Source of the DNA: a virus
Reading direction: 5' to 3' (one strand)
Virus record (IMG/VR): IMGVR_UViG_3300031803_000157
Coordinates: 1 to 50,062 of that record
Length of the DNA stretch: 50,062 nt
The notes beneath the pieces were generated by a model. That model had not been told where the DNA came from, did not search any database, and saw only the letters and a program-made list of their open reading frames with translations. The translations under genes were made by a program, and so were the position numbers. Shown in pieces: positions 2,366-49,086 of this stretch; position 1 is the stretch's first letter; every line of letters begins with the position of its first letter.

Positions 2366-3376
2366 TTAGAATTCAACTACGAGTTTTAAATCTTCAATCT
2401 GGTCAGAGGCACGAGTAATCGCACGGCGATTCTCAAGATAAATTAACTGTCCACTATCTGCTTCTAGACTCACATTTGCATCGGCATATACGGCCGCTTG
2501 GGCCTTCGTTCCACCTCCAGCAAGTTCAGGGTTACGCAATAGACCAATCTGCCTAAAGTCATCGTTCTCTGGGAAACCATCTGAAGTTTCCAATCTAACG
2601 TGAATTAGTCCGTGATGGGTTTTTGCTGTAAAGATTGAATCAACATCGCCAAAATCCATTTGTTCTGAACCCGCTAATACGGCTGTACCTGATATAACAG
2701 GCATCCAGTCATTAGTTGTCGAGTTAATGATATCGTTCAATTCCAATTTGTATAGGAATGTCCATACATAGTTGTCAGACGTTGTTATTGGTAGAGCAAC
2801 AAGTCCCGCAACATCTCCTGTAAAGCCAGTTGGCTCTTCAGAAGCACCAGTAGGTAGCCATAAACCACCGACAGTACCTTCACACGTTGTTCGTGAAACA
2901 GCAGTTCCACCGTCAAAAATACCACCAACATAGCATTTGCCACCAGATGGTTCGCCTGTACACGAATATACACGATATTCGGAATTCATTACTGTAGAGT
3001 GATACCCTACTTTAGATACGAATGAACGTCCTGGTTCAGCAATTCCCGTTATGCCGCCAGCGGCATCTCCGTCAAATGCGATAGTATCGCCAACTTCCCA
3101 GTCAATACGTGGTAGCACCGGGGAAATATCATCGTTCTGTATTCGCTTGGTACCAACAATGTCGGTCCAATACTGACTTTCGTGTTCATCTAGAGGGTCA
3201 GGTAGTGTAAAGTTACCTGAACTTTCGTCATTTCCCTGTGCATCATCCGGCCAAGCATCAGAACGTCCAAAGCCAAGATACAGGTAGTTATCGTCAACAG
3301 AACCAGTAGTTTTGAACTGGTCGATAAAAACCATCAAGTTCTGAGTTCTGAATTTACTGGTTACAATTGCACCCAT
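2366..3376 (-). CDS. 8: Baseplate wedge protein gp8
   Basis: 336 aa, close to T4 gp8 (334 aa). The N-terminus AIVTSKFRTQNLM and the C-terminus with IYLENRRAITRASDQ match T4 gp8 (AIVTSKFRTEKML; IYMENRPPIIMAMDQ) closely enough to recognise by eye. FRQIGLLRNP corresponds to the T4 FRQISIITNP segment. gp8 is a dimeric wedge component that joins gp10, gp7, gp6 and gp53 in the contractile-tail baseplate. A cysteine cluster with a C..TVGGLW ending lies around residues 138-180, where T4 gp8 also has a C...GGKW segment. It is the first gene after a perfect late promoter box at 3423-3430 and follows the giant gene 7-slot protein. Confidence 0.93.
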   Translation of the reverse strand: MGAIVTSKFRTQNLMVFIDQFKTTGSVDDNYLYLGFGRSDAWPDDAQGNDESSGNFTLPDPLDEHESQYWTDIVGTKRIQNDDISPVLPRIDWEVGDTIAFDGDAAGGITGIAEPGRSFVSKVGYHSTVMNSEYRVYSCTGEPSGGKCYVGGIFDGGTAVSRTTCEGTVGGLWLPTGASEEPTGFTGDVAGLVALPITTSDNYVWTFLYKLELNDIINSTTNDWMPVISGTAVLAGSEQMDFGDVDSIFTAKTHHGLIHVRLETSDGFPENDDFRQIGLLRNPELAGGGTKAQAAVYADANVSLEADSGQLIYLENRRAITRASDQIEDLKLVVEF

Positions 3377-3459: not shown

Positions 3460-6400
3460 CTATGATGGGTCCTTCGGCCATACATTACTCTCATCAATGA
3501 TAGTAGTATGCTCGTGGTCTCCTAACCCACCGCCTGCGGTGCTTTGTGTCCATTCACCGCCTTGCTGTACGCTACCTGTATAGGATATCAGGTTATGATT
3601 ATCATAATCACTGGTCTGTGATACGATATTATAAGTCGAGCCATCCCACTCAAGAACTAATTCGTGAGTATATTGTGCCGCGTGAGTGGTATCTCTTTGT
3701 GGTGTAGTTATAAATGTGCCTGTTAATAAAGACACATAATCTGGAACATCTAGCCAATAGTCGTGGTCGTGATAACCACCACTTAATAGAAAAGTATGAA
3801 CAGTTGTTCCAGTACCAGCAATAATGTCATATTGGCTGATTCCATCTACAACAAATGTCCCATCTTGGCCCATATTTGGATTGAATTTAATCGTATATCC
3901 GTGGTAATGACTATCTGAACCATTCGGTGAATCAAAGAATATGAAGCCATAGTTAGCGTCTTGGGCATTAATTAGTTCATTTGCCTGACCAAGAGTGACA
4001 GGTTCACACATTCTACCAGCAAATGCACCCGCTGTATCAAGAGTACATCCCGTAAATAATAGATGGTCGTGGCTTCCTTCACCCTCAATAAAGGATGGCT
4101 GAATCCAAACTATCGGCGGATTATTCGCTTGAAGAATACTATTAATCCACGTCTTTCTTTCTGACAAATCTTCTATCGTCTCCGCCGTGGTAGACGTAGT
4201 AACATCATACGTAATTACTGGGTCACCGACAACAACTTGGTCAGTACCATCCGAATAGAAGGTCGTTGTAGTTGTGGTCGTAGTAACCTGTATAGTCGTT
4301 GTCTCAACTGTTGTGACCAAATCACTATACGTTGTTATTATAGTTGTATCGCCTGGGTCAGGTGTATCAGGATATGTGGTCGTAACTGGCGATAATTCTG
4401 TAGAAGTAACTTCTGTAGTAATATTCGGTGCAGAATTAAGGACCTCATCACTCGTTTCTATCTTCGTTACGTATATGCTACCACCTTCTTGCTGTGGTGT
4501 AACTTCGAGATTTGGATTCCAGTCAATTGTTAAGTTATGCCAGTGGAGCCCTTCTGAAAGATTCTCTACTACAGACACATAATATTTTGATGGGTCTTGC
4601 AGAACATCTTCAATACCACCTCTAATCCAAGTTATAGAAGATTCACAATAGAATATATCATTTGGGTCATCCCATTTTATAACATATTCGTGAAAGTGAG
4701 CACCCTCAATAGAATCATAGATAATAACTGAGTCTATAACTCCGTCAATTAGTTGCATACCTTGTTCAATTGTTAGTCCATCACAATAAGCAATCTCATT
4801 ATTCCAAGCAAACGGTCCAACAAGTGTGCCGTTATGAAAGTGAGGATGAGAACCACCAGGATACGGATAACCAGGTGAACCAAAATCAGGCACTATCTCT
4901 AGTAACTCGTTAAATCCAGGTCGTGAAGAAAGATTTGAAACATTAGTTGGATGTGCGTGACTACGTGGGTCAGTATCATAGAACTGGGCGCCATCACCTG
5001 ATTCCCATTTCTCAACATCTAAAGCAACAAATGACAATAAATTATCATCGTATGTAATTTTTATTCCGTGATAATGGTCTCCGTTAGCGATAGATGAATA
5101 CATCATTACTTCGTCAACCTCACCATTAATTAAGTCTGTCGCTTGATTATCATCTAATGGCATTGCTGTCCTGCCAGTATTTACACCAATTGTATCTAAT
5201 ACTGTGTTATTAAATGCGTGTAAATGGTCTGGTTGAGAACCTGCTAGATTATCCCAATCGTGTGCGTGTGATAGAGTAATATCAGGTGCAGTATAGAGTG
5301 GTGTACCATTCCAACCCAGATGTGTTAACACACCATCCATTGTGAGTGTATGTTCGTGAGTACGTAGAACTATGTCTACTGGAGAATATTCACCTGTACT
5401 ATTTACATCCCATAATTCTTCTACTTCATCAGCAACAAATTGCTGAGAGGAAAGGTTCCACATAATTTTATACTTGTGATAATGTTCGTGTTGGCCACTA
5501 TCAGTAATGGAAGAATAAACAATAATTTCATTAACAACTCCATTTGCTAAATCTTGTGCTTGAACTCTTGTAAACGGTGTTGCTAGTCTATTTGTGTTTG
5601 GACCAAATGTATCTAGTGTTGAACTATCAAAATAATGTAGATGGGTATTTTCGCCATACTCATTCGCACCTAAAATCTGTAGAATAGGTGCAGTTTCAAT
5701 ATAGAATTCTCCTGGACCTTCTTCAGTTTCTGGTGACCAAGGTGTATCAGCACCAGTATCATATGGTTCCCATTGCTCCGTTTCTGAGTTATAGTGCCAA
5801 CCAGCAGATGAACCGATAACAATCTCTTCGTCTAAAACTGCTGACCACGAAATTATTACTGGATGAATATGTGATTGCGGGTCGTTCCATTCCCATATTG
5901 GGTAGAACGAATCCCACTCAGTCATCTCAATATCTGATATTTCAAGTGCATCAAATTGTTCTTGAATTGGGTCGTATGTTACTTGATATCCGTGAACGTG
6001 TGCCGTTTCAGAGGCAGGTATTTGTGATTGTGCAGGAGTCTCAGTTTCCGAATCGTATGTCTCTGTCAATTTGTATATAGAGGTATTGTTTGGTCCAGTA
6101 CCTTGGAAAGTGTTAATACCTACACGAGTAGAGAGATAAATCTCTCCCGCTGTATCTTCACCAATCGTTATTAACGATTTATCGTGGGTTGTAAGTGTTA
6201 CTATTTGACTGACTGGGTCCCAGAATGAAAGGGCTTTTCTTTTCCACCCTATCGCACTGCTCCAAGTCGGCTCTGAGAATGTATCGTGTCCTTCTGGATT
6301 CGTTTGCCCAATTAAGTTGAATACATTAAAAGTAGCATTCCACATAATAGTAAATGTATGTGTATAAAATTCTGCGTGAACACTATCAGACTGAACGACA

Positions 6401-9400
6401 ACTACAGTGGAACCAGGTGTCGCTTGTAAAGAGGCTACTTGTGCAGGTGTTAATTCGCAAGTGTGGCTGTGGTCAGCAATGGTGCCAGAAGCATTCGGTG
6501 TTATATCAAAAGTCGCTGTAAGTCCCTCTGGGTCCTCTTCAAGTGCATATAGATGTCCAGAAGTACCAGCCCAACCTGTACTCCAATCACCAAATATATA
6601 CTTGTCTGTCATACCAGTCAATAGAGAGCCACGATATACGTAGCCGCCTGAGATACTGATGCCAGTTCCGTGACTGTATTCGTGTATAGGATGCTTTAAA
6701 TCATTTAAATATTCTGTCGTATTAGCATATTGTTGGTCAAGTGCGATTTGGTCGATGATTGCCTGGTCTTCCTCGTAGTAGTGATATGCTTCCATCACTC
6801 TCCAACCATAGTTGCCACCGGCTTCTATGATGTTAATTTCTTCAAACTTATTTTGACCAACGTCTGCACACCATAATCTATCTTCAGTATCGAAAGAGAA
6901 GCGCCAAGGATTACGTAATCCATATGCCCATATCTCTGGTCTGAAATATACTAGACCAGTATCGCCATATAGTTTCGCATTAGCAAAAGCGAATGGGTTG
7001 TCTGCAGGGATTGTGTACGGTATTCCATTCACGGTATCTTCTGTCGGGTCTATTCTGAGAATAGTGCCGAGAAGATTAGATGGGTTCTGAGCATTACCAT
7101 AAACACCGTGTCCACCGTGTCCACCTGAGGACGATGTATCACCTGCTGAACCACCATCTCCAAGTCCAATGTATAACATTCCGTCTGGACCAAATTTAAC
7201 TTCACCACCATTATGATTCATATCTGGTTGTGGAATTGTAAGAAGAATCCTTTCAGTCGCAACATCTACACTCGCACCTGCCACATTAGCAGTAAATTCT
7301 GAGATGATAGTAGTCGAAAGTGGATAACCGTAGGCACCAGTCGCTGGTCCTTGTTCTGTCATATAAAAGACATATAACTTACCGTTATTTGCGTAATCAG
7401 GATGAAAGTCAAGACCCAAAGTGCCACGTTCATCGTAAGCACCGAATGGTCCTAATCCGATAGCGTGTTGAATAGTCGTTAAGTCAAAAAATCCTTCTGT
7501 AACACCAGTTGTTGTGTGCAATAGATAGACAAGTCCTGACTGGTCAACAATAGCAATTTTATCTGGGTCCATTGGATATGCTACAATAGTCGCAATATCT
7601 GTTACTTGGTCTGTTACAAGAACATCACCAACTAAATCGCCTGTGTCACCTGAACCAGGAACTGACTGAATAAAGTTACTTGAATATAATCTAACCCAGT
7701 CTACATCTGGATTTAATGTGTCGCTCCAAGTCTGAGTATGTTGGAATGTGAATGATGGTTCGCTCAAGAACGTAGCAAGAGTTGAGTCATCTACGGAAGT
7801 AAATACGTTTTGTGGCCATGAATTTGAGGCCCAATCACCACCGCCCATAATATTTTCGTCAACAATTAATTCTGGTCTGAAGTTGTAACATATCCAAGTT
7901 GCAACTGGTGTATAAGTAAATCCGTGAGTTAATGCGTTGCCTTGGAAATCATTGTGTGTTTCCCAATCGACATCATACGTAACCAAATATTCGTGATAGT
8001 GGGCAGTTAGAGTGCCACTGTTATCTATTGTGCCACCTTGGAAGACACCATCAATTGTATTTGGACTACCGTTATCAAGTTTACCAACGTTATCGTATAG
8101 AGTAACTGAGGCAACTACGCCATCAATTAAGTCTCTCGCCTGTTGTCTTGTAAGGCAATCAGAAGTACGACCTCTTTGTCTGTCTACAATCTGGTCTTCC
8201 TCAAACCAGTGTACGTGATTCGTAGCCTCTGGAAGGAATGCTGTCGTATGTTTACTTGCGTTGAACTCTGGAATCTCAAAGGCATTGTGACTTATTAATG
8301 CTCTTGCTTGAGTATGTGTAAGACCAGAAGCAGTTTGTTCTGTTCCGTGTACAATCAAATTTGGAATTGCTTCATCATTAAAAGCGTGGTCGTGAAATGC
8401 CGCGGTACCGACTGTCATATTTGGCAATTCAAGTCCTTTAGTAACTCTAGTTGCTACTAGAGGAGCGAATCCATTTTTTCGTCCGTGAGAGTGAATCTCG
8501 TCAGATGCCTCAAATGCTTGAATTTCAACTGAATCAATAACATCATTAGTGACACCATATACTTTCTGAACAATAGTATCTTCTCTGTTTGACTCGAAAT
8601 GACCATAAGATTTTTCTGGAGCATATTCGGCCTCAGGCATAAACGCTTCGACCCACTCGACAAGTCTGCGGAGTGCTTTGAATACCCCAAGTTCCCAAAT
8701 TTCACAGGAAATCATACGACCATCTGTCGCACTATATAAGTCATCTCTAATGACCAATTCAGTTACCGATGGCGGGAACTCTGTAATTGGAAGAACTTTA
8801 AGAAGTTTATAGAATTCAAACAATACTTTTTCTGGATAGGCATCAAGTGCTAGTTTAACATCAGAATTCAACCAAGAAATTGTATATAATTTCTCTTTAA
8901 GTGAAGTACCAATTCTTTTAGAATCGAGTTCTAAGAGAACAGATAAATGGTCACCAGGTGACGCCCAGCCTACAGGATTAACTAATGTCGCCCTATTATC
9001 TAGGGTCTGCATCATTTCTATAACATACTCTTCAAATCCCTTCTCAAGATATACCCCAAAGCCAATGTGAGCGTGGCCGAGAGTACCGTGTTGTTCTGAT
9101 TCTTGGTCCCAGATATCTATAGCAACATCAAGATAGGAGAAGATATGGATAAGAAATTTAACATAATCAGTCGGCATCTCAACAGTCATATTAACTTTAG
9201 ACTGGAATGAGAATTCAGCAAATAGTTTTAGACCAACTGGATGCACCAGTTTCTTTAAGACTTCTCGATATGATTGAATAGGAACATCAGATTTGACCAC
9301 ATAAGAGAAATCCTGATAGTAATCGTTGTCTTGTAGTTTTCTGTCAGAAGAAAGGAAGCCAGCAGAATCTAACCAATAACCATTCGTTTTCCAAACAGAA

Positions 9401-10689
9401 GTATTTACATTTGGTTGTGTTGGATTATTGGCAAGAGCCTCACAAGTCTCTCTAGTATCAGGTGGAGACGAAACGCCCGTTAGAACATCATTTTCTACAC
9501 TCTGTAAAGGAGTTGTTACTTCAAGAAGAGGATACCACGCCAGGAATGCAGGCTCACCATAGTAAGGTGATTCGTGCAAATGTGCATCTGGGTGCATCGC
9601 GGCAAGACAATCAATTTGATTAGTGAAGGTACCTAAGACTGGCCAAGATTCCGATGTAGTACAGAAAGACTCAGTTGGAGTAGGATTCCAATATATGCCT
9701 CCAGTATTGTAAATCTTTTCACCAACTAAGAACTCGCCTGCTACTTCTAGCAAATTCATCTTGGTGTAATCTACATCTATTCCATCAATTTGAGCAGTTG
9801 CTCCAGAATCTGTACCTGTAATTGAAACTCTTTCTGGTACCCAGTGTACTTCATTCGGGTGACCTGAAATATACAACCATTTATCTAACCAATTATGTCC
9901 ATTAACGATACATTGGCCATCAGTACGTATACCTTCTGAAATAACAATTGCAACATAGGGTATAGTACCTAATGTTCCTACGTCTTCCCAGATTGGTTCG
10001 TCTTTAACAAAGGTCCCGCTAACGTCTGTAAGTAATAGTCTCTGATAATTTCCTGTAGTTACGATTTCATCCATATCTACGAATGCAGTAGCACCCGAGA
10101 TTTGACCAATTATCTTTTTATTGTATATGGCTCTGACTGTATCAGCATCGTGTACATTTTCAGTTTCGTTATAATATTCGGAACCCGAATCTGTCGTTGC
10201 TTTGTCAGTTAGAATTGTAATCCATTGAGGCTCATACCATACAGAACCAGATGCTTTCATCATCCATTGTTTTGGATAAATCGTTTCAACAGTAGTGTCG
10301 AAATCTCGTCTGAAGAGGAACTGCAGGGCAGATTCAGTACCTTTCTGCCTATATATTGGTTGAATATTTTTGGTTAGAAAAGCCTTATCAGTAGTAGGTA
10401 CGGTAGGGTCAATAGAAGTATGAGGAGTACCGTGAAGATATTGTTTCTCAAACTCTGGGATGAACTGGTCGAGAGCGTGGTCAACATCCACGTTCTGAAT
10501 CAAATCAGTTATCTGTGTATATTCACCTAGTTCCCCATTAACACCAGTTTCTCTCTCCAAGTATTCAAAATACTTGCGGAGAAAGGTGATGAACATAGGA
10601 TGGTCTTCCCGAACATAATCGGGGACCATACGCTCCACAAAGATTGATAGAAACTTTGCTGGAGATTTAGTGAATTTTTCGTTAGCCAT
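3460..10689 (-). CDS. Giant baseplate wedge protein in the gene 7 position, with embedded PQQ-type sugar dehydrogenase domain
   Basis: 2409 aa, lying between genes 6 and 8 exactly where T4 encodes gp7 (1032 aa), so a wedge role is inferred from synteny. Residues 1-150 carry the marine T4-like structural motif FITFLRKYFEYLERETG and IYRQKGTESALQFLFRRDF. Residues about 1030-1390 form a glucose/sorbosone dehydrogenase (GSDH/aldose sugar dehydrogenase) beta-propeller: GLDFHPDYANNGKLYVFYM, NHNGGEVKFGPDGMLYIGLG, IPADNPF, YGLRNPWRFSFD, GGNYGW and ISISGGYVYRG. His1159 (NHNGG) and Arg1259 (GLRNP) correspond to the family's catalytic His and PQQ-contacting Arg. About seven His-rich modules (HYHGYTIKF-like) flank the propeller, and a run of eight Thr sits near 4270-4290. 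The frame is continuous. A TATAAATT box (10710-10717) precedes the ATG. Confidence 0.85.
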   Translation of the reverse strand: MANEKFTKSPAKFLSIFVERMVPDYVREDHPMFITFLRKYFEYLERETGVNGELGEYTQITDLIQNVDVDHALDQFIPEFEKQYLHGTPHTSIDPTVPTTDKAFLTKNIQPIYRQKGTESALQFLFRRDFDTTVETIYPKQWMMKASGSVWYEPQWITILTDKATTDSGSEYYNETENVHDADTVRAIYNKKIIGQISGATAFVDMDEIVTTGNYQRLLLTDVSGTFVKDEPIWEDVGTLGTIPYVAIVISEGIRTDGQCIVNGHNWLDKWLYISGHPNEVHWVPERVSITGTDSGATAQIDGIDVDYTKMNLLEVAGEFLVGEKIYNTGGIYWNPTPTESFCTTSESWPVLGTFTNQIDCLAAMHPDAHLHESPYYGEPAFLAWYPLLEVTTPLQSVENDVLTGVSSPPDTRETCEALANNPTQPNVNTSVWKTNGYWLDSAGFLSSDRKLQDNDYYQDFSYVVKSDVPIQSYREVLKKLVHPVGLKLFAEFSFQSKVNMTVEMPTDYVKFLIHIFSYLDVAIDIWDQESEQHGTLGHAHIGFGVYLEKGFEEYVIEMMQTLDNRATLVNPVGWASPGDHLSVLLELDSKRIGTSLKEKLYTISWLNSDVKLALDAYPEKVLFEFYKLLKVLPITEFPPSVTELVIRDDLYSATDGRMISCEIWELGVFKALRRLVEWVEAFMPEAEYAPEKSYGHFESNREDTIVQKVYGVTNDVIDSVEIQAFEASDEIHSHGRKNGFAPLVATRVTKGLELPNMTVGTAAFHDHAFNDEAIPNLIVHGTEQTASGLTHTQARALISHNAFEIPEFNASKHTTAFLPEATNHVHWFEEDQIVDRQRGRTSDCLTRQQARDLIDGVVASVTLYDNVGKLDNGSPNTIDGVFQGGTIDNSGTLTAHYHEYLVTYDVDWETHNDFQGNALTHGFTYTPVATWICYNFRPELIVDENIMGGGDWASNSWPQNVFTSVDDSTLATFLSEPSFTFQHTQTWSDTLNPDVDWVRLYSSNFIQSVPGSGDTGDLVGDVLVTDQVTDIATIVAYPMDPDKIAIVDQSGLVYLLHTTTGVTEGFFDLTTIQHAIGLGPFGAYDERGTLGLDFHPDYANNGKLYVFYMTEQGPATGAYGYPLSTTIISEFTANVAGASVDVATERILLTIPQPDMNHNGGEVKFGPDGMLYIGLGDGGSAGDTSSSGGHGGHGVYGNAQNPSNLLGTILRIDPTEDTVNGIPYTIPADNPFAFANAKLYGDTGLVYFRPEIWAYGLRNPWRFSFDTEDRLWCADVGQNKFEEINIIEAGGNYGWRVMEAYHYYEEDQAIIDQIALDQQYANTTEYLNDLKHPIHEYSHGTGISISGGYVYRGSLLTGMTDKYIFGDWSTGWAGTSGHLYALEEDPEGLTATFDITPNASGTIADHSHTCELTPAQVASLQATPGSTVVVVQSDSVHAEFYTHTFTIMWNATFNVFNLIGQTNPEGHDTFSEPTWSSAIGWKRKALSFWDPVSQIVTLTTHDKSLITIGEDTAGEIYLSTRVGINTFQGTGPNNTSIYKLTETYDSETETPAQSQIPASETAHVHGYQVTYDPIQEQFDALEISDIEMTEWDSFYPIWEWNDPQSHIHPVIISWSAVLDEEIVIGSSAGWHYNSETEQWEPYDTGADTPWSPETEEGPGEFYIETAPILQILGANEYGENTHLHYFDSSTLDTFGPNTNRLATPFTRVQAQDLANGVVNEIIVYSSITDSGQHEHYHKYKIMWNLSSQQFVADEVEELWDVNSTGEYSPVDIVLRTHEHTLTMDGVLTHLGWNGTPLYTAPDITLSHAHDWDNLAGSQPDHLHAFNNTVLDTIGVNTGRTAMPLDDNQATDLINGEVDEVMMYSSIANGDHYHGIKITYDDNLLSFVALDVEKWESGDGAQFYDTDPRSHAHPTNVSNLSSRPGFNELLEIVPDFGSPGYPYPGGSHPHFHNGTLVGPFAWNNEIAYCDGLTIEQGMQLIDGVIDSVIIYDSIEGAHFHEYVIKWDDPNDIFYCESSITWIRGGIEDVLQDPSKYYVSVVENLSEGLHWHNLTIDWNPNLEVTPQQEGGSIYVTKIETSDEVLNSAPNITTEVTSTELSPVTTTYPDTPDPGDTTIITTYSDLVTTVETTTIQVTTTTTTTTFYSDGTDQVVVGDPVITYDVTTSTTAETIEDLSERKTWINSILQANNPPIVWIQPSFIEGEGSHDHLLFTGCTLDTAGAFAGRMCEPVTLGQANELINAQDANYGFIFFDSPNGSDSHYHGYTIKFNPNMGQDGTFVVDGISQYDIIAGTGTTVHTFLLSGGYHDHDYWLDVPDYVSLLTGTFITTPQRDTTHAAQYTHELVLEWDGSTYNIVSQTSDYDNHNLISYTGSVQQGGEWTQSTAGGGLGDHEHTTIIDESNVWPKDPS
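3890..8340 (-). repeat. His-rich ~75-residue protein repeats in the giant baseplate protein
   Basis: At least seven copies share a consensus: an H.H start, LDT.G...R, T..QA..LI.G.V..V..Y.S, then HYH.Y.I.WD. Endings are visible near 3910 (HYHGYTIKFN), 4690 (HFHEYVIKWDD), 5065 (HYHGIKITYDD), 5475 (HYHKYKIMWN), 5990 (HVHGYQVTYD), 6355 (YTHTFTIMWN) and 7990 (HYHEYLVTYD). The propeller domain interrupts the series. Histidine spacing suggests metal binding, as in YHYH-type or fibre domains, but this is inference. Confidence 0.7.
6520..7620 (-). other. GSDH/PQQ sugar-dehydrogenase beta-propeller domain within the giant baseplate protein
   Basis: This is the domain region of the preceding CDS. Motif order matches soluble aldose sugar dehydrogenases: a first blade with the IVDQSG.VYLL type, then GLDFHPD, NHNGG...GPDGMLYIGLGDGG, GTILRIDP, IPADNPF, EIWAYGLRNPWRF, DVGQN.FEEIN, GGNYGWR, HPIHEYSH and SGGYVYRG. 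The soluble PQQ glucose dehydrogenase family uses the His of the first long motif as base and the Arg-Asn of GLRNP for PQQ contact; both are present. Whether PQQ and calcium are actually bound cannot be told from sequence. Confidence 0.85.
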
Positions 10690-10707: not shown

Positions 10708-12483
10708 TCAATTTATACTCTGCATTGTAACACTACTTTGATTTAGTACCAGCAGGTTACTTCTTATTGCAGTAATGTCGTTTGACTGTGGTGTAGCGTA
10801 CAAACTAATTACTGAGTTTGTGTCAAGAACTGGTCTAAATCCAATTAACTCAATAATTCCATTTTCATAATCAATGGTGCCCTGTTCAGTATTCAAAAAC
10901 TGTTCGTTGACAATATCATACAAGAGAATGTTCCCTTGACCATCGTCAAGTAATGCGTATTGGGTGCTAGTTTCTGTATTACCAAATACTGAGGAAACAG
11001 CAGAACCAGGAGTAATAGCATTATCATATCTGAAAATGTAGTTACCAACGGTATTCGATGCTTGAATATAAAACTTCTTATAGAATTTTACTGAGGTCAA
11101 GTTATTACTAATAGAAGGGTCAGCCGCATCAATAGTGTTGCCAAGTTTAGAATATCTCATAATAACTCTAAATTGGCTAACTTCTTCTTCAAAGAACGCC
11201 GCAATATCGGCAATAATTTTAGTTTGTACTTCACTAGAAGATAATGACGTTAATACTGGGTCATATTTAACTATAGTCTCAACATCAATATACGTATATT
11301 CTGGTGCAGTGATAATAGGATTAATTGCCAGCATATTATATTTTGATAGAATATCGTCAGTTAATTTTTGCTTTGTTAGAGGTGATAACTCAAGACCGTA
11401 TTTCGGTTTGATACAAATAAATACCGCACCATACTGTGGTGGGTCATTATCTTCTCCGCCCCAAACTGCAATAGACTCAATGTTTGGATATTTTTCTATC
11501 AAAATAGTTTTATAATCTTCGGCAGTCACCGCTCTATCTTGTCTCTCATATGCCCTCGGTGCAGTTTCTTTGATGTTTGCTGTACTTTCTGGTTCAGAAC
11601 CAAGAGAAGAAACATCAACTGTATTCACTGTTACTTGACCTGAGGTATATACACTATCAATAGTTGATTCAAGTGCAAAGACCTGCTCAGTAATTGTTGA
11701 AGTATAGTTACCTGTTGCGCCATCAGTAGACAGATATGTTACTTTAATACTCTGTGCATCAAGAGGAATTTTTCCGAAAATTCCGTTGCCAAAGTAAATC
11801 TCTGTAACTCCATCAAGTCCTTCTTGTAAGAAATATGTTGGAGTTTCGCCACCTAATTCAGATAAAACTTGATTGTTATCCCAAGGTTTATCATTAACTG
11901 TCATAGTGATAGTTGACCTATCACACGTTACATCTTCGATAAAAAATGATTGTGTTTCAGAAGTAGCATCATAAGTCCATTCTAAGCCCCTTAATACGCC
12001 TTGACGTAATTTAACTTCTCCTGCAAAAGCACCACCCTCATCTTCAAAAATATTGATTGTTTCTAGATTAGTAAATGGAGTTGGTACACCTGAAATATTC
12101 GATACAAATTGTGTGCCTTTTTCCATAACAATATAAGATGGGTCCTGACCAGTCGTGTCAAATTGTAATTTGACAATTGCTTCTGCGGCCGTCGCTGATT
12201 TTGGAATATATCCAATCGCTTTTGCGTGAGATACTACAGAATTTCTCAGGGTGGCCGTATCAAGAAACGCTTCGTTGACGGCCATATTTGTATGGAAGCC
12301 CATATAATGAGTCGTATATGCCATAACATCTAACATAACACTCATTCCAGAACCCTCAAAGTCGTAGTCTAAAAATTCATCCTGTCCTTTTAAGAATTCT
12401 TTGATATTACTCTTAATACCTTCAAATTCTAAATTTGATAAATCTAATGCTTTTGGATTACTTGTATAATTACCGTTTGCCAT
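10708..12483 (-). CDS. 6: Baseplate wedge protein gp6
   Basis: 591 aa. The N-terminus (DLEF.GIK..I..FLKGQDEF.DYDFEGSGMSVMLDVMAY) and MGFHTNMAVNEAFLDTATLR are the hallmark opening of T4-like gp6. The family's baseplate_J-like core follows (AYERQDRAVTAEDYKTILIE and WGGEDNDPPQYGAVFICIKP). gp6 dimers form the continuous inner ring that ties wedges together around the hub. The gene lies between 25 and the gene 7-slot ORF, the T4-like order 25-6-7-8, with 7 nt separating it from gene 25, which implies one transcript from the late promoter at 12924-12931. Confidence 0.92.
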   Translation of the reverse strand: MANGNYTSNPKALDLSNLEFEGIKSNIKEFLKGQDEFLDYDFEGSGMSVMLDVMAYTTHYMGFHTNMAVNEAFLDTATLRNSVVSHAKAIGYIPKSATAAEAIVKLQFDTTGQDPSYIVMEKGTQFVSNISGVPTPFTNLETINIFEDEGGAFAGEVKLRQGVLRGLEWTYDATSETQSFFIEDVTCDRSTITMTVNDKPWDNNQVLSELGGETPTYFLQEGLDGVTEIYFGNGIFGKIPLDAQSIKVTYLSTDGATGNYTSTITEQVFALESTIDSVYTSGQVTVNTVDVSSLGSEPESTANIKETAPRAYERQDRAVTAEDYKTILIEKYPNIESIAVWGGEDNDPPQYGAVFICIKPKYGLELSPLTKQKLTDDILSKYNMLAINPIITAPEYTYIDVETIVKYDPVLTSLSSSEVQTKIIADIAAFFEEEVSQFRVIMRYSKLGNTIDAADPSISNNLTSVKFYKKFYIQASNTVGNYIFRYDNAITPGSAVSSVFGNTETSTQYALLDDGQGNILLYDIVNEQFLNTEQGTIDYENGIIELIGFRPVLDTNSVISLYATPQSNDITAIRSNLLVLNQSSVTMQSIN

Positions 12484-12490
12484 ATCTCTA

Positions 12491-12898
12491 TTACCTCAAC
12501 CTGTTTAAGAAGAAATCTAACTCTACTGGAGAGCCTTCATTGACTGGAACGTACACGATTGTTACTGCATAACCATTCCTATCTGGGTCAGGCTTACATT
12601 GAACTCCTTGTAACTCAACTCTGGGTTCCTGAGAATTGATTGCCTCTTCAATTGCCGCTTCTAATATAACACGAGTTTCTGTAATCATTGGCTCAAATAA
12701 CGAATGATATACGGTTGAACCGAACTCGCTACTAAAAACACGTTCCCCTCGCCGGGTTTTGATGATATTAATGACCGAGCCGTTAATCGCATCTACATCC
12801 GACCTTCCAACAATATCATTGGTCATCGGATGCACAAGAAAATCCATATCTATGTCTCTATATTTTCTGATTCTCTGTGTTTTAATCGGCGCCGGCAT
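12491..12898 (-). CDS. 25: Baseplate wedge protein gp25 (lysozyme-fold family)
   Basis: 135 aa, the usual length. The segment TRRGERVFSSEFGSTVYHSL is the conserved gp25/W-family signature, ahead of a helix rich in acidic residues (ILEAAIEEAINSQEPRVEL). gp25 bridges the wedge core (gp6-gp53) to the tube/sheath and starts sheath polymerisation. It is the first gene downstream of an exact TATAAATA box (26 nt upstream), and gene 6 follows after 7 nt. The start at 12898 gives MPAPIKTQRIRKYRDIDMDF, typical of the family. Confidence 0.93.
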   Translation of the reverse strand: MPAPIKTQRIRKYRDIDMDFLVHPMTNDIVGRSDVDAINGSVINIIKTRRGERVFSSEFGSTVYHSLFEPMITETRVILEAAIEEAINSQEPRVELQGVQCKPDPDRNGYAVTIVYVPVNEGSPVELDFFLNRLR

Positions 12899-46707: not shown

Positions 46708-47700
46708 TTATCTACGGCTGGCAGGAATGTATACTTCTTCATTTAACATCCTATTACCCTTTTTATCCGTATCTGTCAACACAAGTCCATAGTCATTAAC
46801 TCCACGAGGAATGTTTTCAAATTCTGGCTTGTATTTTAGTTTGTTTTTCTTGAATGGCCCATAGTCGCAGAAATGATGCCATCTCCCATACTTCCATACT
46901 ATACGACAAACGTCTGGGTGCATATCCACGAGCATCTGGCTCTTCTTAATAGTGCCCTCTGGATTGTAGCCAGTCTCTTCAAACTCTTCATTGTCGGTGG
47001 CCTCTACGTGATAGAATTCTTCTGTATTACCACCCTTTACAGTTTGTGTCGCACATTTGCCTTGAAGGAAATGATTGAACTGTATAGTGCAATCTCCGTC
47101 TTTTAAAATTCTCAATGAGAGGTCAGTATCTTCATTGTATCGACCTCGCCAACGATGTACGGTATCGTTCTTGATTAAGTTGCAAGAGTATATTCGAGTG
47201 TTAGTCACATATGGTGGATACTTCTGATTCGGTGCTATGAAGAACCTGTACTGGAGTCCGCCCATTTTGACGTTCTCATATCTATCACAAAAATCTTCGC
47301 ACGACCTAAACAATGCTCCGTTCTCTACACGATACCTAAAGTTTTTTTCAAGTCGATAGAAGTCGGCAATATTATCATCCATTACCCAATGCCATTCTGT
47401 ACCTAGAACTTCTTTAGCGTGGTCCCAACACCAATTTCTTGCTCTCCCTGGACCATCACTGTGATTTGAAAAAGGAAGAATCAATAGTATAGCATAGTTT
47501 AGGTTAAATTTCTCCAATGCCAATTCATATGATTTTTCATCTTGTGGTTCAATAGCAATATAGTGATGTACTTTCATCCGAGTCAAAGACCTAGATGTTA
47601 TCATCGAATCCGCTCGACCCTTACTAATAGTGTAAAGGGGATATTGAGGATAATGTGGGTCCTCGTGAGGAGTTCTTTGAAGTTTTGGGCTCATAGGCAT
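46708..47700 (-). CDS. TET-associated glycosyltransferase (TAGT-type)
   Basis: 330 aa. YPLYTISKGRADSMITSRSL, KVHHYIAIEPQDE, GPGRARNWCWDHAKE, EWHWVMDDNIADFYRL, FCDRYENVKMGGLQYRFFI, NTRIYSCNLIKND and RWRGRYNEDTDLSLRILKDG match the phage TAGT family, which is linked to TET/JBP dioxygenases and thought to glycosylate hydroxymethylcytosine in DNA. The DD of MDDN is the nucleotide-sugar/metal site (GT-A fold). AGGAG precedes ATG 47700. No TET/JBP gene is seen in this window. A second glycosyltransferase lies just upstream. Confidence 0.82.
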   Translation of the reverse strand: MPMSPKLQRTPHEDPHYPQYPLYTISKGRADSMITSRSLTRMKVHHYIAIEPQDEKSYELALEKFNLNYAILLILPFSNHSDGPGRARNWCWDHAKEVLGTEWHWVMDDNIADFYRLEKNFRYRVENGALFRSCEDFCDRYENVKMGGLQYRFFIAPNQKYPPYVTNTRIYSCNLIKNDTVHRWRGRYNEDTDLSLRILKDGDCTIQFNHFLQGKCATQTVKGGNTEEFYHVEATDNEEFEETGYNPEGTIKKSQMLVDMHPDVCRIVWKYGRWHHFCDYGPFKKNKLKYKPEFENIPRGVNDYGLVLTDTDKKGNRMLNEEVYIPASRR

Positions 47701-47788
47701 TTCAAAAATCTCCTAATTCTATATTGGGTTATCCATATAGTATTAAAAATCTTTGCTTTAATTATATACCATTCAATCACATCGTCTC

Positions 47789-47953
47789 CTATTTCCGTAG
47801 TGTTCGAGGGTCAGCGTTACCAACCCAGTGAGCAGGAAACTCCTCGACACCAGATTCTGTCCAACCATCCAATCCCCAACTCGGACTGTAGGTGACCGCG
47901 AACGCAATTAATAAACCTATCGTACAAATCCAACCAATATATGCTCTAATCAC
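47789..47953 (-). CDS. 54-aa signal-anchor protein
   Basis: GTG 47953 overlaps the glycosyltransferase stop (GTGA); TAG at 47789. It reads VIRAYIGWICTIGLLIAFAV, then TYSPSWGLDGWTESGVEEFP, AHWVGNADPRTLRK: one TM followed by a Trp-rich extracytoplasmic segment. It lies between the two glycosyltransferase genes. No family recognised. Confidence 0.55.
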   Translation of the reverse strand: MIRAYIGWICTIGLLIAFAVTYSPSWGLDGWTESGVEEFPAHWVGNADPRTLRK

Positions 47954-49086
47954 ATTATACTCCAGTCAGTAATTAGCGGCCTACCATTCACCGCAAATTG
48001 GGTTAATGTTGGTCGTTCTAATACTTCAAAAGGTACATTATACATCATTTCGCTCCACTTGTCAACCCATTTTTCTTTGCTGTGTTTCTTCTTTGTTGAT
48101 TCGCTTAACGCCAATCGGTTCTCATACGCATCAAACTTAAATCTCATCGTATGGATAGCCTCTGTTAATTCTTCTGGTTTCACGTTCCTGTCAAGTATTT
48201 TGAAATGGCCGTGGTCGGCGGGAATCGTTTCCGAAGAATGTTTACCACTCTTATCACTCAGCAGAATAACTGGCACTCCGTGAAGAAGTGCTTCCAATAC
48301 AGTGATTCCCCACGATTCAACTGGACAAGTGGAAACATAACAGGCTGCCATAGACATTGTTTCTAGTGTGTCTCGATGAGTTAGCCCTCTGTAAGTATAC
48401 CGTGGATTTTTCCAATGAAGATTATCATCCCAATACTTTTTCTGATTTTCGCTGTGTTGGTAATTATCTGCATTGGTAAGAACACAGGAAGATAAATCGG
48501 TGGATGCTAATTTCTTATGAAGTAGAAATGGATTCTTCGTCAAGTCGGTTCTGCCAATAGTTACTGTATCATACCTAAGTTGTTTTGATACTAATTCATT
48601 ACCATTAGCAAAGGAAGAGTTTATCGTTCCTTTGACTCCCCTCAATGGCCATCCAGTAATACGTTTAACATTTTTATCGTGAAATTCTGCCTGGTGCTTT
48701 GAGACAAAATACAAATGTCCTCCAGCATCAATGAACTCCTGTATGCCTTTCCACCAAGTGACGTATCGTATATCTCGTACCAGTGGTTCGTGCATAACCA
48801 TAATCGTTGGTATACCTTCCTCTATCAGAGGAATAGTAAAATACCAATCAATATCGTTAATGATTATAAGGTCTGGGTGGTGCTTTCGGACAGCATCAAG
48901 GAAAACCTTCTTTGTCTTTTTCGCTTGTCTATCTTCTGTTGTGATTTCTACTGGAATTGAATCGGCGGGAAATGCCTCATACAAATTTCTGACAAACTTC
49001 TCAATGCCACCACCCACAGTTTTACTGTGAATATTGTGACCGCTTCTCGACAGATAAGGAAGAAGAATTTTCTTACTCATTCTCAT
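47950..49086 (-). CDS. GT-B fold glycosyltransferase (GT4-like; possible DNA glucosyltransferase)
   Basis: 378 aa. The N-terminal half holds LLPYLSRSGHNIHSKTVGGG with a GGGIEKFVRNL nucleotide-sugar loop; the C-terminal half has TIGRTDLTKNPFLLHKKL, YVSTCPVESWGITVLEALLH and GVPVILLSDKSGKH, the E..G...LEA pattern of GT4 retaining enzymes. T4 alpha-glucosyltransferase has a similar IGRTT..KGF segment, so DNA glucosylation is possible, but envelope or protein glycosylation cannot be excluded. It overlaps the 119-aa gene upstream by 8-14 nt. An internal promoter (48037-48065) sits near its 3' end. Confidence 0.72.
   Translation of the reverse strand: MRMSKKILLPYLSRSGHNIHSKTVGGGIEKFVRNLYEAFPADSIPVEITTEDRQAKKTKKVFLDAVRKHHPDLIIINDIDWYFTIPLIEEGIPTIMVMHEPLVRDIRYVTWWKGIQEFIDAGGHLYFVSKHQAEFHDKNVKRITGWPLRGVKGTINSSFANGNELVSKQLRYDTVTIGRTDLTKNPFLLHKKLASTDLSSCVLTNADNYQHSENQKKYWDDNLHWKNPRYTYRGLTHRDTLETMSMAACYVSTCPVESWGITVLEALLHGVPVILLSDKSGKHSSETIPADHGHFKILDRNVKPEELTEAIHTMRFKFDAYENRLALSESTKKKHSKEKWVDKWSEMMYNVPFEVLERPTLTQFAVNGRPLITDWSIM
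48037..48065 (-). promoter_or_regulatory. Consensus sigma70-type promoter inside the GT-B gene
   Basis: Minus strand TTGACA (48060-48065), 17-nt spacer, TATAAT (48037-48042), within codons for VDKWSEMMYNVPF. It could give extra transcription of the 54-aa and TAGT genes. Confidence 0.7.

Follow-up and report, generated by a model that had tools for sequence, protein, structure and literature searches.

Why a propeller of the sugar dehydrogenase type should lie within a phage baseplate protein, and whether it binds or oxidises sugars there, is the question raised by this locus. The window analysed here is the whole stretch of 50,062 nucleotides constituting the 50-kb IMG/VR virus record IMGVR_UViG_3300031803_000157. 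It harbors a T4-like gene set (gp32, a gp53-type wedge protein, gp25, gp6, gp8, tail tube, NrdAB and others), and it belongs to a lineage of marine T4-like phages that have not been cultured. Two glycosyltransferase-like genes at 46708-49086 (PHROG 842, beta-glucosyl-HMC-alpha-glucosyltransferase, and PHROG 4356) are possibly involved in DNA base modification. The baseplate locus comprises the following features:

12491..12898, minus strand: gp25 (context), PF04965 E=9e-13
10708..12483, minus strand: gp6 baseplate wedge protein (context), PHROG 219 E=1e-159
3460..10689, minus strand: 2409-aa baseplate wedge protein of the gp7 slot with a C-terminal extension, a long ORF that is also present in relatives
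9169..10689, minus strand: conserved wedge core of this protein, aa 1-507, matched by PHROG 17744 (E=1e-47) and PF23786 and, in BLASTP, by the slot proteins of phages Cr30 and Melnitz
2366..3376, minus strand: gp8 baseplate wedge protein (context), PF09215 E=3e-31

With the gene order gp25, gp6, 2409-aa ORF and gp8, the ORF fills the position of gene 7, so that its assignment to the gene 7 slot in the original prediction is borne out by position. Its N-terminal ~500 residues match baseplate wedge families, and the homologue of phage Cr30 is annotated as 'structural protein'. Homology to T4 gp7 was not detected by sequence: profile A3 returned no chain at E<=10 from the PDB entries searched, among which the T4 baseplate structures should be. 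This is in line with PMC7029224, according to which a recognisable T4 Gp7 is also missing in marine pelagi- and cyanomyophages.

In BLASTP, homology of the window protein to the slot proteins of Caulobacter phage Cr30 (767 aa) and Methylophilales phage Melnitz (896 aa) was confined to aa 12-507. As homology to isolates ends at aa 507, everything beyond about aa 530 represents an added C-terminal extension. These ~1900 aa contain HxH motifs, followed by the propeller and then by further HxH repeats, with about 20 HxH motifs, while a pattern scan of the whole 2409-aa protein yielded 25. The parts of the extension are:

7972..8394, minus strand: HxH motifs on the N-terminal side of the extension, aa 766-906 (pattern scan, repeat listing, conserved histidines)
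6055..7617, minus strand: GSDH/HHIP-like six-bladed propeller, about aa 1025-1545 (PF07995, AlphaFold2, Foldseek)
6256..6507, minus strand: insertion of ~85 aa that precedes the last blade and includes an HxH motif (alignment)
3463..6012, minus strand: C-terminal HxH array of several ~60-aa repeats with paired HxH (pattern scan, repeat listing)

The GSDH family PF07995 was matched by aa 1087-1367 (about nt 6589-7431) with 110.5 bits (E=1.4e-31), which is far beyond chance given a cut-off of 25 bits. The predicted location of a GSDH domain inside the 2409-aa baseplate ORF was thus confirmed. An AlphaFold2 model built from 26 sequences reached a mean pLDDT of 73 (70-95 over the greater part of the propeller), and we assign medium confidence to the modelled fold; a first model from 14 sequences (pLDDT 65) had been discarded as too weak before the alignment was deepened. 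In Foldseek searches with the propeller model, the Hedgehog-interacting protein (HHIP; E=1.7e-20) and soluble quinoprotein glucose dehydrogenase (sGDH; 1.7e-17) were retrieved, and aldose sugar dehydrogenases (Asd), including PQQ-bound ones, were aligned over their full length (target-normalised TM-scores of 0.72 for 3das and up to 0.78 for 7cgz). Model and structural matches together support a complete six-bladed propeller of the GSDH superfamily over aa 1025-1545, as had been anticipated. The coordinates originally proposed for it, 6520-7620, cover most of the propeller, but the last blade (~aa 1480-1545) follows the ~85-aa insertion, so that the domain ends at about nt 6055 and not at 6520. 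By alignment, this insertion is missing from L055, L121 and cellular relatives.

The same fusion was found in 34 further IMG/VR contigs (23 loci by protein scan and 11 contigs by motif scans), some of which are samples of one virus, and the order gp25-gp6-X-gp8 was present in every fusion contig with flanks available. A chance or assembly fusion was therefore rejected. Complete fusion ORFs mostly measured 2353-2784 aa. The slot ORF at L020:6194-11977 stops early (1927 aa) compared with 2675 aa in the very similar L023, due to a frameshift or an assembly error. Between the window and its relatives, dN/dS was 0.11-0.20 for the GSDH part, with similar values for the core and the HxH part, indicating that the GSDH part is under purifying selection.

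In a survey anchored on gp6, GSDH was present in 9 out of 9 long slot proteins that were complete (2353-2784 aa) and accompanied by a gp6 of 63% identity or more; with a gp6 of 33-40% identity, no slot protein had it. The slot protein encoded at L185:2220-4349 (gp6 79% identical) has 709 aa and contains neither GSDH nor HxH array; L185 is a single short contig, representing a natural variant or an assembly artefact. In L199:9428-17587 and L200 (gp6 40%), which represent a sister lineage, the 2720-aa slot proteins carry FG-GAP (integrin-type) propeller repeats within the wedge core in place of GSDH. Both the FG-GAP propeller in the slot of L199 and the absence of the extension from L185 agree with a module that can be exchanged.

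Outside the main family, GSDH was again found attached to proteins of the virion type. In the distant T4-like phage L095 (gp6 31% identical), the gp7 slot is occupied by a 2852-aa protein, with gp8 coming next, and the C-terminus of this protein is a GSDH domain (137 bits to PF07995) that has no HxH insertion. L121 encodes, close to a gp5-like hub of the same gene cluster, a 674-aa tail-fibre-type protein with GSDH as its C-terminal half (164 bits). The C-terminus is the usual receptor-binding end of tail fibres. In a tree of phage and cellular GSDH sequences, the main family formed one clade and the domains of L095 and L121 were sisters (98; the pair is also given as L055 and L121) on differing carrier proteins, with 44 for a single origin of all phage copies. 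Two YYYCxxH cupredoxin-like loops lie upstream of the L095 domain (L095:3102-4061); they were considered as a copper electron-acceptor domain and rejected, a cupredoxin being unconfirmed by Pfam. Two further GSDH-type loci were observed: L142:7279-10974, whose 1231-aa product, a structural-looking phage protein, combines two GSDH-like domains with proline-rich linkers, and L147:9985-11535, a free-standing secreted GSDH that probably has a signal peptide and is neighboured by tail, sigma-factor and endolysin genes on a phage contig. For the window, a host metabolic cargo gene (AMG) was rejected, as the GSDH domain lies inside the wedge ORF.

No sugar-dehydrogenase-type virion propeller was found in isolated phages. 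The clear GSDH matches in the phage collection were bacterial contigs filed as phage. 'Acinetobacter phage MD-2021a' was rejected as a phage homologue, since genes of a bacterial chromosome, among them mutY, tag and purC, lie in the stretch read from its contig, CAKLQH020000008.1; a second record of this name, CAKLQF020000012.1, gives the same match. The viral structure library yielded matches named GSDH from giant viruses only (Pithovirus and Marseillevirus metagenome genomes, LCPAC, LCMAC), and a search of the literature on GSDH or PQQ in phage tails gave no precedent.

The HxH repeats follow the form HxH ... ARxLIxG ... HYHxYxIxWD, which is kept across the family. Assignment of the array to a known domain was rejected, since searches of Pfam, PHROGs (with the whole protein as query), isolated phages and PDB sequences were empty; judged by its motifs, it is possibly a new metal-binding virion domain. 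In T4, the HxH repeats of fibre tips bind metal. By analogy, the HxH repeats of the window protein could bind Fe, Zn or Cu, with the propeller as a passive part of a metal-rich appendage. The 25 motifs, most of them retained across 15-18 relatives, fit such a metal-centred tip, but the GSDH-bearing slot protein of L095 contains a single HxH motif and the fibre-type protein of L121 has GSDH without any array. The propeller is thus independent of the HxH array, and we consider a metal-centred tip with a passive propeller very unlikely.

To understand what the propeller could do, its pocket was compared with that of sGDH, for which the following positions are relevant:

7213..7215, minus strand: His1159 (NHNGG), equivalent of the sGDH catalytic base His144; His in 25/25 aligned members covering the site
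6910..6915, minus strand: Arg1259-Asn1260 (RNPW), equivalents of sGDH Arg228-Asn229; invariant, His-Asp in HHIP
6853..6867, minus strand: ADVGQ loop with Gly1278, aligned with the calcium-site Gly247 of sGDH (alignment)
6163..6177, minus strand: SLITI of the last blade at the place of the PQQ-binding Arg406/Arg408 of sGDH/Asd, without Arg (alignment)

The numbers Asp163 and Arg406 and the column assignments follow our own alignment. Asp1178 lies in a GDGG motif of the propeller. The motifs NHNGG, GDGG, RNPW and ADVGQ were kept in the aligned phage relatives covering them, with small changes at non-pocket letters only. Equivalents of sGDH H144, D163, R228, N229 and G247 were invariant across the phage family members covering them. 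The presence of a catalytic-type His and a PQQ-contact Arg-Asn was therefore verified, and the polar pocket residues (His, Arg-Asn, Asp and His1340) remained invariant down to about 37% identity. This degree of conservation exceeds what would be needed if the propeller were a rigid, ligand-free spacer that sets the length and geometry of the appendage and uses the motif residues for folding. Many of these residues are located in turns of the propeller, several are present in HHIP without known enzymatic function, and the extension seems dispensable in L185, all of which would suit a spacer; in L095 and L121, on the other hand, GSDH is located at the very C-terminus, where nothing is left to space. 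A purely structural role of this kind appears unlikely to us.

The likely base of sGDH is His144, which is assisted by calcium and Arg228; the ketones of PQQ are flanked by Arg228/Asn229 (PMC6881810). The PQQ carboxylates are held by Lys377 and C-terminal arginines in characterised six-bladed quinoproteins (PMC6881789, PMC6881810). One clamp Arg (R621 in CcPDH) is common to sGDH, Asd and AA12, while Lys377 is not essential, as AA12 enzymes show (PMC6881789). In the alignment of the main phage family, neither Arg nor Lys was present at the columns of this clamp (K377, R406/R408). The Lys377 region was occupied by S/G/T and the Arg406/Arg408 region by L/I/V and T/S/C/G (26 members at the last-blade columns, where the alignment is of moderate certainty). 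Some cellular relatives (L026, L027) keep one Lys/Arg at the clamp. According to an alignment by eye, His1340 could take over as ligand in the manner of CcPDH His539. By alignment, the PQQ site is thus half kept and half lost, with the kept half under strong constraint. The propeller falls into the HHIP/HHIPL-like (DVGQ) subclade, to which it is nearest by sequence and fold and with which it shares the DVGQ and FGDW/Y motifs and the lost clamp. With the sGDH-type NCBIfam model TIGR03606, it scored 62.8 bits, far below the cut-off of 434.55; one of the cellular DVGQ-type proteins that bear the name 'PQQ-dependent sugar dehydrogenase' failed this cut-off as well (80 bits). Neither an electron-accepting Pfam domain nor a C-x-x-H copper motif was found in the window protein.

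These data bear on the possibility that the propeller is an active virion-borne oxidoreductase, which would take up Ca2+ and a quinone (PQQ or a different one) from its environment, oxidise surface sugars during adsorption and pass electrons to an external acceptor. The invariant equivalents of the catalytic and calcium-site residues, the end-to-end match of the model to aldose sugar dehydrogenases, the naming of the cellular cousins and the dispensability of Lys377 are consistent with it, and other members of the subclade have fused copper domains as possible electron takers. The lack of any Arg or Lys at the clamp, including the Arg shared by sGDH, Asd and AA12, the low TIGR03606 score, the missing electron acceptor and the closer relationship to HHIP than to sGDH all argue against it. 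PQQ catalysis would need a cofactor from outside and an unusual mode of carboxylate binding, and we regard an active oxidoreductase as improbable. That a redox enzyme dependent on a quinone and calcium is built into the wedge protein and alters host-surface glycans during adsorption by oxidising sugars likewise seems improbable. The designation 'PQQ-type' is supported for the retained His, Asp, Arg-Asn and Gly and not for the site as a whole, in view of the clamp, the family cut-off and HHIP as nearest solved structure.

Despite the loss of the clamp, the invariance of the pocket residues, together with dN/dS of 0.11-0.20, indicates that some function has been retained. We favor an exchangeable host-surface-binding (adhesin) module, probably calcium-bound and devoid of classical PQQ turnover, to which we give an even chance. 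In this adhesin model, the gp7-slot wedge protein would act as scaffold, its ~500-aa core building the baseplate wedge and the ~1900-aa extension hanging outside the wedge core, presumably exposed outward given the position of the wedge. The pocket on the top face of the propeller would hold a sugar, probably a glycan, or another ligand of the envelope, probably with calcium. The occurrence of GSDH on the gp7-slot proteins of two distant phages and on the fibre C-terminus of a third supports an adhesin, as does the binding function of HHIP, to which the propeller is closest among solved structures. Of the two activities first considered, binding or oxidising cell-surface sugars, an action on such sugars is plausible, while a PQQ-type enzyme was not supported. 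The data agree better with the alternative raised in the original prediction, namely reuse of a carbohydrate-binding propeller for the virion, given the missing clamp, the proximity to HHIP and the lack of an electron-accepting domain. His, Asp, Arg-Asn and the calcium loop are kept more strictly than in HHIP, which could reflect retained catalysis.

Tail spikes and fibres are familiar carriers of enzymes and lectins. While adhesin and enzyme domains on tail proteins thus have precedents, a GSDH-type propeller in this place has none in the collections and papers searched. It points to the gp7-slot wedge protein as a carrier of exchangeable propellers, and its conserved, defined pocket offers a lead to the receptor of a recurrent group of uncultured marine phages. 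We know of no redox cofactor at a phage baseplate, and PQQ binding, if true, would be the first case.

Compared with known systems, the slot proteins of Cr30 and Melnitz share the gp6-X-gp8 position and a homologous core with the window protein, but have neither GSDH nor HxH array. VrlC-type and other baseplate proteins of pelagimyophages and cyanomyophages are likewise operon proteins with host-recognition domains (YHYH, concanavalin-like), and no GSDH domain was found in the searched passages of PMC7029224. The GSDH proteins of giant viruses (LCPAC, LCMAC) belong to viruses of eukaryotes and are not baseplate proteins. The sGDH (1c9u/1cq1) and Asd (2g8s, 3a9g, 3das) enzymes are six-bladed and have the catalytic-type His, Asp, Arg-Asn and calcium-loop Gly in common with the window propeller, which differs from them in lacking the K377 and R406/R408 equivalents and in scoring far under the sGDH family cut-off. 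The cellular DVGQ-type 'PQQ-dependent sugar dehydrogenases' of Pontibacter, Haladaptatus, Gemmatirosa, Verrucomicrobia and Phycisphaerae belong to the same PF07995 subclade, are about 35-44% identical and share the ADVGQ..EE, GGNYGW and FGDW/Y motifs; unlike the window protein, they show no phage fusion, and several have N-terminal plastocyanin-type domains. The best solved match is the HHIP propeller (PDB 2wfx/3ho3/7pgm; sequence profile E=2e-31, fold E=2e-20), which also lacks the PQQ clamp and keeps the His and GDG motifs. HHIP differs in having His-Asp in place of Arg-Asn and in being an animal signalling protein with EGF repeats and without baseplate core or HxH array, and its propeller-containing part binds heparin (PMC8660895).
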